In this document: one piece after another, positions 877-17,699 of the stretch
Layout: the number at the start of each line of letters is the position of its first letter
Position numbering within the stretch: position 1 is the first letter of the stretch
Origin: a virus
DNA: 56,278 nt
Strand: one strand, 5' to 3'
IMG/VR virus record: IMGVR_UViG_3300003323_000592
Coordinates: 1 to 56,278 of that record
The notes under the pieces: generated by a model
Database searches by the model: none
Told to the model about the DNA's origin: nothing
What the model saw: only the letters and a program-made list of their open reading frames with translations
Made by a program: the position numbers and the translations under genes

Positions 877-3600
877 ATGGCACAAGCCAGCCAGAGCCCC
901 AATTCAGATGTCTCCAACGTGGATGGGTCCGTCGACTTCTCCGGAGGCGTCAATTCCCTCAAGGTCACCACCGTCGCCTCGGATCAAAATCCCAAAGGTC
1001 TCGCTCGAAATGAGCTGGCGTGGCTGACCAATGGAACCGTGCGAGATGGCGGCATTACTCCGCGCGCGGGCTGGAAGCCACTGAAGAGACTGGGCTCTGG
1101 CTCCAACCCATTTCAGGGTGGTTACCTGTACCAGCCGATCAACGGCGATGACCCGTATCTGCTCTTCCTAATGGGTGGCCGTTTATTTAAAGCCGGGGTC
1201 GATGACCAGGTAGTGCAGGATTTGTTCTCCACCGTGTACGTGAAGAACAACAACCAGAAGCCGAGCATAACTCTCAAGAATCTTTCCATTCCACCCGTGG
1301 GCACCGTCGGCAACGTCACCGTGGCGGCCGATATCCAATCCATCTACGGACTACCGTCCTCCTTCGCTCAGCCGGCCATCGGATCGAATATCACCATCAC
1401 CAACAACGGGGATGTCACGGGGGAGATTGGCGACGTTATTGTGATCTACGGCTCGATGACCACGACGGCGTTGAGCATCGCTTACAACAGCTCCGCCAAC
1501 CAATGGGAGGCCAGCGCCACCTTGAAGTCCGACCAGCCCAACCTCCTGCCTGCCGGATTGAGCAGTGGTGGTGGAGCTTTCCTGAACCCACACGGCATAC
1601 CGGCGGTGGGTAAAATCACTAACCGGGTGACATGGCTCGTGCCAGTGTTCACCGCTCCCGCAGCTGGTGGCAGCGTGGTGGTGAAATTCACCAGTCCAGC
1701 CGATGTTCGCCTGTCTCCGGGCGTGTACATATTTCAGGACGCGTCACATTCCTATCCCGTCACAGTTCCCAGTGGAGGCCAAACCGTCACTTACAACTCC
1801 GGACCGAACACGCTCAGCGATCACATGGTGTTTAACGCCGCGATTTTAAGGAACACGGACGGCTCACTTATAACGAGTATTTGCGGCAAGCCAGTGGTAA
1901 ATCTTAACACCATCGCCGGGACCACTATCACCCCGACTGCACTCCTTCAGGCCGACTGCACGCCCATCACCAGCTGGACGCTTGCTCCCTTTACCGTGGC
2001 CGCCATTGGCAACACCACCATCGTGATGACTCAGCCTGCCACCGTCCCCTCCGGATTGTTCAACGCGGGCGACATCGTCAATTTCCCCTGGGGCAATGCT
2101 CAGGTGGTGAACATCACCAACGGAGTAGTGTTCAGTTTCGGCGATGGCATCACCAAGCCGTTCTTTGCCCAAGGCAACGAGTTTTGTGTGGTGCAGGCCG
2201 GGGACTATACCACCCTGCCGCTCTTTTGGGATGGCAGCATCCTGCGCAGCTCCCTAGGCATCAGCAACAACGCCGTCGCTCCCGGAACTCCCGGCGTCAA
2301 TGAGCTGCCTCCGGGTGGTCCTATGGACTTTTACATGGGGCGCCTCTGGTACTCGGTTGGACTAAACTTTCAAGCGGGCGACATCACGGGCGGTCCTTCC
2401 GGAACAGCTCCGTACAGTTTCCGGGATGCGATCCTGAACGTCACCGAGAACCCGCTCGTGTTGGGTGGTGACGGCTTTTCCACCCCCGCCAACGAAGGGC
2501 TCATCACCGCGCTCAAGCACAACGCCAACCAGGACCAGGCTCTGGGTCAGGGCGTACTGTTCGCTTTCACTCCCAAGGGAGCCCACGGCCTCACGGTGCC
2601 GGTGACGCGTGGCGACTGGATTGCAGCAAGCAATCAGAATCAGCCTAAACTGGTGCCGGTGCAGCTGGCCATGGGCACGCTCTCCGACCGATCGGTGGTG
2701 GCGGTGAATGGCGACTTGTTCTATCAGGACCCGCTGGGCAATATCCGGACCCTACTCACCGCGGTGCGTTACTTCGGTCAGTGGGGAAACCTTCCCATCA
2801 GCTCAAACATCAACCGGCTCCTTCAGTTCAACGACAAGACATTGCTCAACTGGGGTTGCGGAATCTACTTCAACAACCGGATGATTCAGTCCGCGCTACC
2901 CATCCTCACCCCGCAGGGCACGGTGCATCAAGCCTTGTCCGCGATGGACTTTGAGCCCATCAGTAATTTTCAGTCGCAGACAACTCCGATTTGGGAAGGC
3001 ATGCATGAAGGTCTCGATATTCTCCAGACTTTTGTGGGCGTGTTCAGCGGCAAGGAGCGGGCGTTCGCAGTGACGGTGTCGCGTCTCGATTTCAGCATCC
3101 AACTCTGGGAGTTGACGGCTGATGAGCGTTTCGACAATACCGACAATCGCATCCAGATGCAGGCCGAGTTTCCTGCGTTCACTTGGGGTAATGAGTTCAG
3201 CCTGAAGCAGCAGCTCTCCGCCGAACTGTGGGTGGACCGGCTGTATGGTGAAGTGGTTTTCACCTTGGAGTACCGGCCTGATGGGGAATCATGCTGGCAA
3301 AAATGGCACGAGTGGAAGATCTGTTCGCCACGTAATAGCTGCGAGAGCACCGGGGTCAACCCCTGCACCGGACTGGCGCAGGTGCAGTGCTACCCGCTGA
3401 TTCCCTACGGCGAATCATATCGGCAGACCATGACGCTGCCGACGCCTCCCGAAACTTGTGCTGCTTCCAGCGGTCGGCCGTCGTACGTAAACTACCAGTG
3501 TCAACCGCGGTTGACTGTGAAAGGTTTTTGCCGCATAAGAGGGTTGTTGCTGCACGCGACACCGAAGGAAAAAGCGCTCTACGAAGGAAAGGTTTGTTGA
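877..3600 (+). CDS. Large virion protein, probable tail nozzle (T7 gp12 / P22 gp10-like)
   Basis: 907 residues with no signal peptide or membrane segment. The N-terminal part (about residues 40-75) has a pattern ending in N-G-T-V-x-D-G-x-I-x-P-R-x-G-W, resembling the start of podoviral nozzle and DNA-stabilisation proteins. The rest is beta-rich, as expected of a propeller-based tail protein. It is the first gene of a plus-strand virion block and is followed after 1 nt by the Ig-like protein. The last third is Cys-rich (for example around ICSPRNSCESTGVNPCTG). A copy of the 16-bp palindrome lies in the gene (3500-3515), read here as Q-P-R-L-T. The nozzle assignment is inferred from length, composition and position beside an adaptor-like gene. 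Confidence 0.5.
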   Translation: MAQASQSPNSDVSNVDGSVDFSGGVNSLKVTTVASDQNPKGLARNELAWLTNGTVRDGGITPRAGWKPLKRLGSGSNPFQGGYLYQPINGDDPYLLFLMGGRLFKAGVDDQVVQDLFSTVYVKNNNQKPSITLKNLSIPPVGTVGNVTVAADIQSIYGLPSSFAQPAIGSNITITNNGDVTGEIGDVIVIYGSMTTTALSIAYNSSANQWEASATLKSDQPNLLPAGLSSGGGAFLNPHGIPAVGKITNRVTWLVPVFTAPAAGGSVVVKFTSPADVRLSPGVYIFQDASHSYPVTVPSGGQTVTYNSGPNTLSDHMVFNAAILRNTDGSLITSICGKPVVNLNTIAGTTITPTALLQADCTPITSWTLAPFTVAAIGNTTIVMTQPATVPSGLFNAGDIVNFPWGNAQVVNITNGVVFSFGDGITKPFFAQGNEFCVVQAGDYTTLPLFWDGSILRSSLGISNNAVAPGTPGVNELPPGGPMDFYMGRLWYSVGLNFQAGDITGGPSGTAPYSFRDAILNVTENPLVLGGDGFSTPANEGLITALKHNANQDQALGQGVLFAFTPKGAHGLTVPVTRGDWIAASNQNQPKLVPVQLAMGTLSDRSVVAVNGDLFYQDPLGNIRTLLTAVRYFGQWGNLPISSNINRLLQFNDKTLLNWGCGIYFNNRMIQSALPILTPQGTVHQALSAMDFEPISNFQSQTTPIWEGMHEGLDILQTFVGVFSGKERAFAVTVSRLDFSIQLWELTADERFDNTDNRIQMQAEFPAFTWGNEFSLKQQLSAELWVDRLYGEVVFTLEYRPDGESCWQKWHEWKICSPRNSCESTGVNPCTGLAQVQCYPLIPYGESYRQTMTLPTPPETCAASSGRPSYVNYQCQPRLTVKGFCRIRGLLLHATPKEKALYEGKVC
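3500..3515. repeat. 16-bp palindrome GTCAACCGCGGTTGAC, copy 1
   Basis: Exact copy inside the nozzle-like gene, read in frame as C-Q-P-R-L-T. See the palindrome finding. Confidence 0.95.
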
Positions 3601-3601
3601 T

Positions 3602-4957
3602 ATGTCTGGACCATTTCCCTGCGATAACACGCCCAGCCAGTGCGAGACGAACCCCAACCCACAGACGAGCTTCTCGTCGGAATCGAAAGATTCCACCACC
3701 TTTATCGGGCTGACCTGGAACGGCAAGCTGCCGGCGCTTAATAGGCCATTTAATGTTTTTCCCTGTGAAGCCATCACTCAATCACAAGTGTCACAGGAGG
3801 ACGCGGATCGTCTTGCCAATAACGCGGTGGTGTCTTGCTCCAACCCGTGTGCCCCAACATTCTCAAACTCTGCCCAGACCGCCTCTGGCACGTGCAACGA
3901 TGGAACCAGCTATTTCTTGACGATTCCAGCCGGGCAATACGTGGCGGAAAGCCAGGTGCAGGCCGACCGCAACGCCTTCACAGCAGCTTCCAAAGCCATC
4001 ATTGGCCATTCGATTTGTCTGGGATCTCTGGTTCCCTCAGGATGCTGCCGCAACACATTTTATTTTGGGATCATCAGCATTTTAAAAACCGACCCGACTG
4101 TTACTGTCGAGCTGGTGAGCGGCTCGCTCCCGGCTGGGTTAACCATGGTGATGGAATCGGACCGGGTTGTGATCGAAGGAACTCCTTCCGAGTTTGGCAC
4201 TTCGCACTTCACCCTGACGGCCAGCGGATCGTCCGGAGTGTTTACCACCAAAACCTACAGCATCACCATTATCGGTATCACCACCTCAGGAGCGTTGTCG
4301 TCCGGGTTCTTGAGCACTCCTTACTCCGCAGTCATCATGGCGGCGAGTGTTGATTTATTCATCCAGTCGGGATCGTTGCCGCCGGGACTGTCGTTAAATC
4401 CATCTACAGGGATTATTTCAGGAACCCCGACCGCGTCGGGAAATTACACCTTTACCGTCGCTCAAACATCGGGCGGAATCACCTGCCAGTCCATATGCAG
4501 CATCAATATCCAGGGCATAAATTGGGACCTGATGGTGTGGTCCGATATTGTCAACGGCGTAGGCTCGGGAGGCAGCGCTTCCGGAGTCTATGTGGGTAAA
4601 GCCTTTTCAGTTTCCGCGCTGGGAACCGATGGCGCTCACGCCTCCTCCTCTGAAGCGAACGGAACGCTCGTCTATACTGGACCTGCCGTAAACTGCAATC
4701 TGCGAGTCGTGGTAACCGCTGGGCCGACCAACAATGTTGGGTTCGTCATCAAGCAGGACGGAGTCACCAGGCTGCAAATCAACAACACCATCATCACCAC
4801 TCCAGGCACTTACGATCTGCCCTTCGCTCTGATTGCGGGAGTCAATTCCGTGATTACCATCACCGGCATTGTGAGCATTGGCCACCCGGCCGGATTGTTT
4901 GTGTGGAGCTTCGATAACGCATTGGGAGCCTATTCTGGCGTGTTCTCCAGTGTATGA
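3602..4957 (+). CDS. Virion-associated protein with two He-PIG (Ig-like) repeats
   Basis: 451 residues. Two He-PIG type Ig-like repeats are visible. One has GSLPAGLTM then a GTPSEFGTSHFTLTA segment (about residues 170-210). The other has GSLPPGLSL then SGTPTASGNYTFTVAQ (about 257-300). The C-terminal 140 residues form a Gly/Ala/Ser-rich beta domain. The N-terminal part is Cys-rich. Such folds usually mediate adhesion or decorate virions. The ATG lies 1 nt after the upstream stop, so translation is probably coupled. A tail appendage or receptor-contact protein is the likeliest role. Confidence 0.6.
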   Translation: MSGPFPCDNTPSQCETNPNPQTSFSSESKDSTTFIGLTWNGKLPALNRPFNVFPCEAITQSQVSQEDADRLANNAVVSCSNPCAPTFSNSAQTASGTCNDGTSYFLTIPAGQYVAESQVQADRNAFTAASKAIIGHSICLGSLVPSGCCRNTFYFGIISILKTDPTVTVELVSGSLPAGLTMVMESDRVVIEGTPSEFGTSHFTLTASGSSGVFTTKTYSITIIGITTSGALSSGFLSTPYSAVIMAASVDLFIQSGSLPPGLSLNPSTGIISGTPTASGNYTFTVAQTSGGITCQSICSINIQGINWDLMVWSDIVNGVGSGGSASGVYVGKAFSVSALGTDGAHASSSEANGTLVYTGPAVNCNLRVVVTAGPTNNVGFVIKQDGVTRLQINNTIITTPGTYDLPFALIAGVNSVITITGIVSIGHPAGLFVWSFDNALGAYSGVFSSV

Positions 4958-15032: not shown

Positions 15033-17699
15033 TTACAATAGTTCTTCGGCGATTACTGGTTTACTGACTGGTCGTTTCCATCCGTTGTTTCGGAGATTAT
15101 CGATGAGGACTTTGGCCTCCTTGGCGGGCAGCTCGGCCGCGTTCGCGTAGCCCGCTCGTTTGAGCACGTCGGCCTGACGTGGTGTGGCCTTTCGGTCCTT
15201 CAGGCGCTTGCATAGCTCGACAAAGAGCTGCTTGGCTTGCGTGTAGGGATACTGAGAAGCGTTGATGCCGAAGCGAGCCATCAGGTTCACCTGCGACTCG
15301 GACAGTTTCTTTCCCATGTCGAACGGCTTGGGCTTGGTGGGAACCAGGTCGAGCGCATCGAAGGGGTTGATCTCGATCTTGGTGTACTTCGAGCGGGCCA
15401 CCAGCTTCACGCGCCGGGCCTCGGCCTCGCGCTTGGTGCGCTCGATGCGTTTGCGAATCTCCTCCTCCGATTCTTCCAGCACCTCCATGACATCCATCGC
15501 CTCGCCCTTCTTCTCCATTTTCTTCTTCGCGAGTTTCAGGGCGCGGTCGCTGACCTTACCGCCAAGAATGTCAGCCACGGTGATTAGCTTGTGGTTGCCG
15601 GAGTTACCCACGAAGTCGAGCACGGTGCAGCTCGGTTTCTCGGACTGGGCGATGAGTTTGCAGCGCGAACCTGAGTCCACGCAGTCGTTGAGCAGTCGTG
15701 CGATGGAGTCGGCGGGACGCAGGCCACGGCCGGCGAACTGGGTGTAGAGACTCCGGCTTTTTGTAGCGCGGCCCATGATGAGCAGCTCCACGGCGGGGTT
15801 ATCAAATCCCTCGCCGCAGATGCCGACATTGACCAGCACCTGCAACGCACCAGATTTGAAGTCCTTGAGGATAACCTTCCGCTCTTCGCGCGAAACTTTG
15901 TCCCAGATGGCCGTGGACATGCCGCTGACCACCCGGTTCAGAACCTCCGAGAAACGCTGGGCCTGCTTGATGCTCGTGCAGAACACGAGCGTCCGGCGTG
16001 GCTTGCCTTTCCGGCGCAGCACCTGCCCCCAGTCCTCGACTGGGGCGAAGTCCAGATACCGGTCAGGTAAACTCCACGAGGCTTCCAGGGTGGGCTGAAT
16101 CATGCGTTGAACCGTCTCTTCTTCTTCGAGCACGGCTGAGAGTTGTCCGAGGTTGAGATCCCCGGCGGTGGTGGAGATGTGGGAGTAGTCAAGCCCTTCC
16201 ACCGGGACGTAGTGCTGTTTGATGGGGACGAGCCAGCCTTCGCCGATGCCCGCCAGAATGTCCATCTTGTAGGCTGTTGTCTGGAACAGCTGCTTGAGAG
16301 CTTCTTCGTCAGATCGGTCAGGGGTGGCGGTGAACCCCACAACCTTGAGTCGAGGATTTTGCTGAAAGTAGCGGACCACCTTGAGGTAGGAGGGAGCGAC
16401 CCAGTGATGGCAGTTATGGACGAGCACGCCATCAGCGAAGTAATTGTGGTTGTCCTCTACTTCAATATTGTAGACAAAACCATCTGGACACAGCCCTCCA
16501 AATTTTCCATCACTTCCTGGTTCGAGAAACGTAACACTTTCCACCCTATCGACTGTAAAAAATCGACCTTCTTGCTGTCCTGTTGCCTCCTGGTCGCCGC
16601 AGAATGTGAACGACCATCTATTTCCACCCCGATCTTTAATTGAGGATGGCCAACATCCAGCTTGTAGCAGGTTGGATAACCCGAATCTCTCGGCATACTC
16701 GTTTTCACCACGACATTGGTGCTCCAAGATAACGCGGCGGCAAGTGCCGCCTCGGTGCTTGTTGGACCTTTCCCATTTCCACCCCGAGAAATAGGCTGGT
16801 GGCCAATCCGTCGTAGCGTGGCGGCCATCTTCTTGCGAGTGATCGGTTGGAACATAGGGTTGCGGTAGGTCATCCTCTGGGATGCGTATTTTCGATTTGT
16901 TCTCGCCATAGTCGATGACGACTCCCTTGATCGCATTGCGCGCGCGCAGGAGTGGGAACAGAACAGCCTCTTTCCAGACGAGACTCGAAAGCGTTCGTAT
17001 TTTGTCTTTGGTGTGACGACTCCTCCACATTCGCAGCATTTCAGGCTCATTAGTGATGAGTCTAAACACCACTGAGTTGCTTGTCAATGCGTGAGCGGGA
17101 ACGTAACCACCAACTCCGATACTGAATATCGGATGGCTGTTGGTAGTGACCATCGTGTGCCCCGAGGCAAACGCCACCCTCACCATACAGTGAGGCTTTG
17201 ATTTGAAGGTGGCGACGACCTTCTTAGGCTCGATGGTTTTTCCCATTGACCTCACCGTGTCTCCTTTTTTGAGCTGTTCGATTGGAATGCCGTCCACCAG
17301 CGTCCCCGCAGGAAAGCACTCGTCAAGGAACATATAATCGAAGTCTGTCGGCCTAAAGTTCGCCATGCGTCCATCCCCACCATTGCCTGAGTATTGGGTT
17401 TGAACGGTGCCGATCACAACTTGCTCTTTCGAGAAAACACCGTAATCAGCTTTGAGGTCTGCCATCTCAATCCCAACCTTAACGCCGGCGTTCTGCTCAA
17501 TCGTGTCCCTTGCCTGGTAAACTAGGGTGTCTCGATGGCATAAAAAAAGGCACCGGCTAGGCTGCACCCTACGTATCAGCTCGGCGGTGATACGGGTCTT
17601 GCCAAGCCCGGTCGCTAGCACATTGATTGTCGACATGACCCCTTTGTCAAACTCGGCCAGTGTTGCTGCCACGCAGTCGTCCTGATAAGGGCGAATCAC
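15033..17699 (-). CDS. DEAD/H-box helicase (SF2) interrupted by an intein
   Basis: The 888-residue precursor carries a 302-residue intein (residues 128-429). Splicing would give a helicase of about 586 residues. Seen: Q-motif-like start, Walker A with GLGKT (31-35), FLDE (124-127) joined after splicing to CHHW (430-433) to rebuild the DECH box, GFTATP motif III, and FAGRGLRP motif VI. This is the restriction-type/UvsW-like SF2 group, likely replication or branch-migration work. Translation is coupled to the upstream gene (ATGA at 17696-17699). Because the intein splits motif II, activity must depend on splicing. Confidence 0.88.
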   Translation of the reverse strand: MIRPYQDDCVAATLAEFDKGVMSTINVLATGLGKTRITAELIRRVQPSRCLFLCHRDTLVYQARDTIEQNAGVKVGIEMADLKADYGVFSKEQVVIGTVQTQYSGNGGDGRMANFRPTDFDYMFLDECFPAGTLVDGIPIEQLKKGDTVRSMGKTIEPKKVVATFKSKPHCMVRVAFASGHTMVTTNSHPIFSIGVGGYVPAHALTSNSVVFRLITNEPEMLRMWRSRHTKDKIRTLSSLVWKEAVLFPLLRARNAIKGVVIDYGENKSKIRIPEDDLPQPYVPTDHSQEDGRHATTDWPPAYFSGWKWERSNKHRGGTCRRVILEHQCRGENEYAERFGLSNLLQAGCWPSSIKDRGGNRWSFTFCGDQEATGQQEGRFFTVDRVESVTFLEPGSDGKFGGLCPDGFVYNIEVEDNHNYFADGVLVHNCHHWVAPSYLKVVRYFQQNPRLKVVGFTATPDRSDEEALKQLFQTTAYKMDILAGIGEGWLVPIKQHYVPVEGLDYSHISTTAGDLNLGQLSAVLEEEETVQRMIQPTLEASWSLPDRYLDFAPVEDWGQVLRRKGKPRRTLVFCTSIKQAQRFSEVLNRVVSGMSTAIWDKVSREERKVILKDFKSGALQVLVNVGICGEGFDNPAVELLIMGRATKSRSLYTQFAGRGLRPADSIARLLNDCVDSGSRCKLIAQSEKPSCTVLDFVGNSGNHKLITVADILGGKVSDRALKLAKKKMEKKGEAMDVMEVLEESEEEIRKRIERTKREAEARRVKLVARSKYTKIEINPFDALDLVPTKPKPFDMGKKLSESQVNLMARFGINASQYPYTQAKQLFVELCKRLKDRKATPRQADVLKRAGYANAAELPAKEAKVLIDNLRNNGWKRPVSKPVIAEELL
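16413..17318 (-). mobile_element. Intein in the helicase DECH box
   Basis: 302 residues. It starts C-F-P-A-G-T-L-V (Cys1 codon 17316-17318) with block B HTMVTTNSHP about 50 residues later. It ends in a typical C-terminal block ending NHNYFADGVLVHN, with Asn at 16413-16415 followed by Cys+1. All splice-junction residues look intact. The middle (about residues 217-380 of the precursor) has no LAGLIDADG or other in-frame endonuclease motif. The same DNA encodes an endonuclease in another frame (16457-17050). Confidence 0.9.
16457..17050 (-). CDS. Vsr-like (EDxHD) homing endonuclease encoded out of frame inside the intein
   Basis: 197 residues, reading one base off the helicase/intein frame. Seen: a treble-clef zinc finger (C5/C8 and C31/C35), a NUMOD-like segment NPMFQPITRKKM...GHQPISRGGNG (64-93), then a nuclease core with E100, D132 (YKLDV), VEIDGRSH (142-149) and D158, ending LQSIGWKVLRFSNQEV. 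These match the EDxHD family related to Vsr and to I-Bth0305I. It occupies exactly the slot between intein splicing blocks B and F, where in-frame endonucleases normally sit, and its last codons overlap block F. No clear Shine-Dalgarno precedes the ATG at 17050. Real coding is supported by preserved motifs over the full length. Confidence 0.85.
   Translation of the reverse strand: MSLKCCECGGVVTPKTKYERFRVSSGKRLFCSHSCARAMRSRESSSTMARTNRKYASQRMTYRNPMFQPITRKKMAATLRRIGHQPISRGGNGKGPTSTEAALAAALSWSTNVVVKTSMPRDSGYPTCYKLDVGHPQLKIGVEIDGRSHSAATRRQQDSKKVDFLQSIGWKVLRFSNQEVMENLEGCVQMVLSTILK

Follow-up and report, generated by a model that had tools for sequence, protein, structure and literature searches.

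How can a contiguous intein and a homing endonuclease be encoded by the same stretch of DNA in two different reading frames, when as a rule the endonuclease of a full-length intein lies in frame? This question is raised by the IMG/VR virus record IMGVR_UViG_3300003323_000592, which was analysed at its full length of 56,278 nt (referred to as the window in the following). Its minus strand carries a phage helicase gene with the features listed in Table 1.

Table 1. Features of the helicase, the intein and the nested nuclease ORF in the window, with the support for each assignment.
Feature	Position	Strand	Support
Phage SF2 (ResIII/Helicase_C, phrog_16) helicase precursor, 888 aa	15033..17699	-	Pfam ResIII E=1.6e-21, Helicase_C E=3e-14; PHROG 16 DNA helicase E=4.6e-68
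N-extein, C-terminal end ...YMFLDE (Walker B / motif II)	17319..17699	-	Sequence
Contiguous intein, 302 aa, C1...H301-N302, +1 Cys	16413..17318	-	TIGR01443 intein_Cterm 32.1 bits vs cut-off 15.6; profile matches to solved inteins, best 2lwy E=1.6e-20; AF2 model matches HINT folds (Foldseek)
N-terminal splicing domain, intein residues 1-90	17049..17318	-	AF2 pLDDT ~97
In-frame intein linker, residues 91-252, predicted to be disordered; its DNA doubles as the larger part of the nuclease gene in the +1 frame	16563..17048	-	AF2 pLDDT ~50; substitution pattern of close pairs is that of the nuclease frame
C-terminal splicing domain, intein residues 253-302, blocks F and G	16413..16562	-	AF2 pLDDT 87-98, strands 254-265 and 282-301
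Nested putative homing endonuclease ORF, 197 aa, ATG start, +1 relative to the intein frame	16457..17050	-	DUF559 E=3.9e-12; AF2 mean pLDDT 94.3; Foldseek 3r3p I-Bth0305I and 3hrl
Predicted internal nuclease start codon (ATG), without strong Shine-Dalgarno	17048..17050	-	Start-codon and SD comparison
Zinc-finger-like CxxC...CxxxC of the nuclease (C5, C8, C31, C35)	16946..17038	-	Invariant in 9-sequence alignment
DUF559/Vsr-like catalytic domain, residues 129-194, with E143, D145, H149, D158	16469..16666	-	Pfam; residue conservation in relatives
Doubly constrained stretch: nuclease residues 163-197 and folded intein strands on common DNA	16457..16564	-	Four-fold-site entropy; lowest substitution rate

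In the helicase of the window the intein is flanked by the ResIII and Helicase_C domains detected by Pfam, and it is inserted into the Walker B motif at DE↓C (the arrow marks the insertion point). Its first residue, C1, directly follows ...YMFLDE, and its end, ...YFADGVLVHN, precedes the Cys of the DECHH motif. C1, H62 and N302 are invariant in 73 inteins of the family, T59 and H301 are present in at least 90% of them, and the residue following the intein is Cys or Ser in the listed loci. By its splice motifs, its predicted HINT fold and a conserved host site for which an intein-free allele exists, the insert has class 1-like intein features; splicing activity is inferred from this anatomy.

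The nuclease frame starts at intein codon 90, directly after the N-terminal splicing domain, and ends with a stop codon at 16457-16459 inside the C-terminal splicing domain. The match to DUF559 (PF04480) reaches 46.4 bits, compared to a gathering score of 20.6. In 73 relatives, D145, H149 and D158 of the nuclease are invariant, and E143 is found in at least 90%. Two strands, FFTVDRVESVTF and VYNIEV, open the C-terminal splicing domain, and their DNA coincides with the last ~35 nuclease codons, so both frames code for folded protein here: in the window, KKVDFLQSIGWKVLRFSN of the nuclease and EGRFFTVDRVESVTFLEP of the intein are encoded by identical DNA. A first-pass annotation of this DNA had described a contiguous intein with open frame and intact splice motifs, and within it, in the +1 frame, a full endonuclease with a zinc finger. 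The combination of such an intein with an intact endonuclease ORF in a second frame holds for the window as well as for all 182 related loci, with splicing itself being inferred, and coordinates and content were confirmed. Its placement exactly between blocks B and F can be kept for the start, which lies after the N-terminal splicing domain, but not for the end, which does not lie before block F.

Structure predictions are in agreement with this division. An AF2 model based on the intein alignment gave pLDDT values of ~97 for residues 1-90, ~50 for the linker, and 87-98 for the C-terminal part from residues ~251-253 to 302, and a Foldseek search with the model ranked solved inteins first (prob 1.00). 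The nuclease was modelled with a mean pLDDT of 94.3. Its Foldseek matches with high target coverage were I-Bth0305I (3r3p) and 3hrl, with a TMt of 0.64 each and an E value of only about 0.01 (for 3r3p, E=8.6e-3 and prob 1.00). The sequence HMM match to 3r3p is weak (E=0.036), and the alignment to I-Bth0305I has N and W at the columns of D145 and H149. According to these models, the ends of the intein frame are predicted to fold as a splicing domain and its middle to be disordered, while in the other frame the common DNA would yield a compactly folded nuclease.

When IMG/VR was scanned with the 197-aa protein, 10 loci were obtained, 8 of them with identical layout, and the set was widened by alignment-based scans and by tblastn on phages and plasmids. 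In all 182 related loci obtained in this way the intein frame is open over the whole nuclease, the +1 relation is constant, and the nuclease is intact. An in-frame endonuclease, as found in full-length inteins, was thus not present in any of the 182 loci, nor was a host gene or intein split into two ORFs found in the window or in any of these loci, in which the host ORF is contiguous throughout. The 182 loci form 132 clusters at 99%, 82 at 60% and 31 at 50% nuclease identity. These clusters were built greedily from BLAST identity and their numbers are approximate; certain contigs were fetched repeatedly, and the duplicates are absorbed by the cluster counts. Since the loci were found with nuclease queries, inteins lacking a nuclease are under-sampled.

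The loci stem from phages, bacterial contigs and one plasmid. Isolates with the layout include Vibrio phages CP-T1, 159E43-1b, 1.088 and 1.194, Corynebacterium phage phi673 and Pseudomonas phage MR14; outside phages it is carried by bacterial contigs, for example of Azospirillum canadense and Roseicella, and by a plasmid of Rhodovastum. None of the six phage regions that were inspected has a separate annotation for the nuclease, which is contained in a single CDS named helicase or otherwise; for CP-T1, phi673 and MR14 the annotation gives a helicase alone. Host genes of the family encode SF2 helicases, SNF2 proteins, DNA polymerase III clamp-loader subunits and a T4-like terminase domain, and insertion is mostly after an acidic Walker B-type DE or DEAH. 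The only in-frame relative (L010/L214, 2548-3573) has the ordinary layout: a distant DUF559 nuclease with a related catalytic domain lies in frame with an intein of a different phage gene, possibly a head morphogenesis gene, although this is a guess. A scan with this nuclease returned only itself and none in phages. As a separate observation, the third forward frame is also open in a Verrucomicrobia contig (L094, 3726-4547), with 274 codons over most of the overlap; this is unusual in the family and likely due to chance.

The effect of the double coding on the sequence was assessed by codon shuffling. In the window, synonymous shuffling of the nuclease created 7.2 intein-frame stops on average and none of 300 shuffles stayed open, while the nuclease frame remained open in 1.7% of the cases when the intein was shuffled. 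A chance ORF was rejected on the basis of the shuffling tests. Over 72 non-redundant loci, no intein-frame stop was observed in the overlap versus 511 expected when nuclease codons were shuffled among synonymous positions, and the third frame contained 941 stops versus 869 expected. Intein-frame stops come about where AA, AG or GA follows a nuclease codon with T in third position: not one of 3432 nuclease codons in this context ends in T, compared to 23.5% elsewhere and to 20.8% in free-standing DUF559 genes. When the intein codons were shuffled, 183 nuclease-frame stops were expected and 1 was observed, which is the natural end of the ORF. Both reading frames are under constraint.

Across most of the overlap, substitutions are governed by the nuclease frame: nuclease third positions account for 59% of the changes in nine independent close pairs, and downstream of the nuclease 13 of 14 changes fall on intein third positions. 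The substitution rate per site in close pairs was 0.056 in the doubly coding zone versus 0.145 in the linker and 0.194 before the nuclease match. Among divergent relatives the entropy of four-fold sites was 1.40 bits in the overlap with the splicing domain versus 1.78 bits (p=1.1e-7). Two positions illustrate the double use: the invariant Gly169 of the nuclease is encoded by GGG in 58 of 67 sequences, giving Val in the intein, and at nuclease residue 193, 50 of 57 four-fold codons have T as their last base, by which the Tyr of VYN is encoded in the intein.

In relatives a start codon is present just before the first zinc-finger Cys (in L075 an ATG precedes the zinc finger) or a few tens of codons upstream, and in most of them this internal start is accompanied by an SD-like site. 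SD-like pairing at these internal starts has a mean of −5.6 kcal/mol versus −3.4 kcal/mol at control start codons (p=1.4e-7), and values at or below −5 were obtained for 60% of the internal starts versus 32% of the controls. From the start codons and the enrichment of SD-like sites in relatives, internal initiation therefore appears as the likeliest route to the nuclease, whose expression is inferred. Support is weakest for the phage of the window itself, because its nuclease ATG has no SD (dG +0.5); use of SD sequences is weak in this window generally, with 29% of 34 presumed genes at or below −5. Programmed +1 ribosomal frameshifting from the N-terminal intein domain would lead to a fusion of N-intein and nuclease without internal initiation. 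The missing SD in the window would be compatible with this, as would the nuclease frame being open for tens of codons upstream in some loci. In many loci (e.g., L127, L028, L064, L086), however, a nuclease-frame stop is located a few codons before the first zinc-finger Cys with the start codon in between, and the SD-like sites at the internal starts also argue against frameshifting, which we consider unlikely but cannot exclude.

The other alternatives concern the nature of the element. If only the intein frame mattered, the nuclease ORF could be a dead remnant, since homing theory leads one to expect decay of the endonuclease after fixation. Homologues with an endonuclease frame broken by stops would have refuted the first-pass annotation, and none was found in 182 loci: where stops seemed to be present, the ORF either ends naturally 1-6 residues early (L057/L066, L176) or the stop is located upstream of the start codon (L211, L198). 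Together with the depletion of nuclease-frame stops on intein shuffling and the nuclease third-position bias in the linker, this makes a dead remnant very improbable. Endonuclease ORFs of group I introns are often out of the host frame, and the insert might accordingly be an RNA intron that carries such an ORF and involves no protein splicing; this is scarcely tenable given that the host frame is open through the insert in all 182 loci, that the intact splicing domains match solved inteins, and that an Rfam search of the insert gave no intron match. Single indels in metagenomic contigs can shift frames, and an in-frame nuclease moved out of frame by such a sequencing or assembly error would likewise have refuted the earlier interpretation, but the frame relation is identical in independently sequenced phage isolates and in all 182 loci, by which an error is practically ruled out. 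The first-pass annotation had also suggested, in hedged form, an intermediate on the way to or from split inteins. Nuclease ORFs are indeed found between split-intein halves in S16, JEP6, 1.238 and others, and a single stop codon within the linker would be enough to part the halves. Nevertheless, no split form with the present nuclease family occurs in the 182 loci, the layout is stable over 82 clusters (<60% nuclease identity), and the fractured cases with an identified nuclease (S16, 1.238) have other families and another frame relation. It is quite improbable that the layout is a transient state to or from fractured genes.

Several observations bear on mobility. Vibrio phage 142E35-1 has an intein-free version of the same helicase, with a contiguous DEAHH (DE↓AHH) and flanks that are 85-87% identical. 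In the pair 159E43-1b and 104E43.1, which both bear the intein, the intein is 95.3% identical versus 90-92% for the exteins, as expected for recent spread or for stronger constraint, two causes that are not separated here. A nuclease-free mini-intein of ~150 aa is present at the same DE↓C site in the Vibrio phages K459, 13VV501A and PS65A, so loss of the nuclease does occur. The helicase of two of these phages (L216, Vibrio phage 13VV501A; L222, PS65A.1) seems to hold, besides the ~150-aa mini-intein in Walker B (DE↓CFPAG), a second intein in Walker A (G[AG]GK↓CHRKG). Distance matrices of the intein N-domain and the nuclease are correlated (Mantel r=0.43, p=0.003), which agrees with co-inheritance of intein and nuclease but does not prove it. 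Homing is inferred from the nuclease family, its distribution and the empty sites; no cleavage site was mapped.

Considering all these data, we regard it as highly probable that the locus is a mobile intein with a homing endonuclease gene nested out of frame, although splicing, internal initiation, cleavage and homing are inferred. A ribosome would read the helicase mRNA straight across the intein, and the nuclease-coding stretch would appear in the intein frame as a disordered linker between two HINT halves. Judging from its anatomy, the intein would then splice from the Walker B motif and restore the helicase. Second ribosome entry at the internal start after the N-terminal splicing domain may give rise to a separate zinc-finger and DUF559/EDxHD-like nuclease. 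This nuclease is presumed, from its family, distribution and the empty sites, to cut the DE↓(A/C)HH Walker B site of alleles without the intein, and repair would copy the intein together with the nested gene into the cut alleles. The two proteins would be bound permanently to common DNA, with the linker mainly requiring the absence of stops and the last ~35 nuclease codons also encoding two splicing strands.

It is also probable, in our opinion, that such elements constitute a stable and widespread intein class beside split, in-frame full-length and mini-inteins. The endonuclease gene of this class is fully nested in +1, catalytic domain and C-terminal splicing domain lie on the same nucleotides, and the elements occur in several P-loop NTPase families (SF2 and SNF2 helicases, clamp loader, terminase-like) and are mostly unannotated. 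Intein and endonuclease thus need not be one polypeptide, and two unrelated folded domains can occupy common DNA in different frames across very distant phages. A hidden nuclease gene is predicted in helicase, SNF2, clamp-loader and terminase-like genes that are annotated as single proteins. For the study of overlapping genes the family provides a large natural data set, in which the linker as control zone and the doubly constrained zone are part of one element. The way in which the out-of-frame nuclease is translated, and its possible protection by the common DNA from the usual decay of homing endonucleases, become testable, and such long disordered linkers in working inteins would be useful for engineering.

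The first-pass annotation knew of no case of this kind. This view is weakened by the ShiLan element, an out-of-frame HNH in a mycobacteriophage DNA methylase (Arsenault et al. 2025, PMC11855218), and by a preprint that the same paper cites for overlapping reading frames (Gosselin et al. 2025, bioRxiv 10.1101/2025.01.02.630785), on actinobacteriophage inteins of 'non-canonical architecture'. The preprint may already describe the principle of out-of-frame nesting, and the nested layout is for these reasons not categorically new. Within the actinophages of the collection that was searched, only Corynebacterium phi673 has the present nuclease family. ShiLan resembles our elements in that an open host gene conceals a mobile nuclease gene in a second frame, which annotation overlooked; it differs by the absence of a splicing domain and by its nuclease family, and its insert is thought to remain in the host protein (PMC11855218).

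With I-Bth0305I (PDB 3r3p) and DUF559/Vsr-like nucleases the present nuclease may share the fold of the catalytic domain and the E-x-D-G...D block, but the PDB lists I-Bth0305I as a mobile intron protein; it is not nested in an intein, and matches only weakly in sequence. Fractured genes, with a nuclease gene between split-intein halves, were reportedly described by Dassa and co-workers in 2009. We see this arrangement in UvsW of Salmonella phage S16 and in the terminase of Escherichia phage JEP6; judged by profile matches, the nuclease is TnsA-like/NUMOD3 in S16 and HNH_3 in Vibrio 1.238, and DUF559 in neither. In the fractured intein of the 1.238.A terminase (L219, 2728-3715) the end of each split half runs into an HNH ORF that lacks annotation, with overlaps of roughly 135 and 85 nt. 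In Escherichia phage TB34 (L223, 1169-2920) and Shewanella phage Thanatos-2 (L225, 467-2212) the first terminase fragment contains a TnsA-like/NUMOD match within its ORF, while JEP6 (L224) has a separate ORF for it, so that fractured layouts in T4-like gene 17 seem to form a series. The fractured helicase intein of Dickeya phage JA11 (L217) has its halves at 1652-2788 and 3865-4758, and the roughly 1 kb between them (2789-3864) has unidentified content. As in fractured genes, the nuclease of the present family is a separate ORF between splicing halves, and the site is sometimes Walker B there as well. Fractured genes, however, have a host gene in two parts with ORF overlaps of ~10-65 nt, whereas in the present family one host ORF contains the fully nested nuclease of ~590 nt.

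Full-length inteins with an in-frame homing endonuclease have been termed type II (PMC9403480). Like these, the elements described here have a HINT domain interrupted at the usual place by endonuclease DNA, a conserved host site and presumed homing. Unlike them, they encode the endonuclease as a separate protein in another frame, and the in-frame insert is predicted to be disordered.
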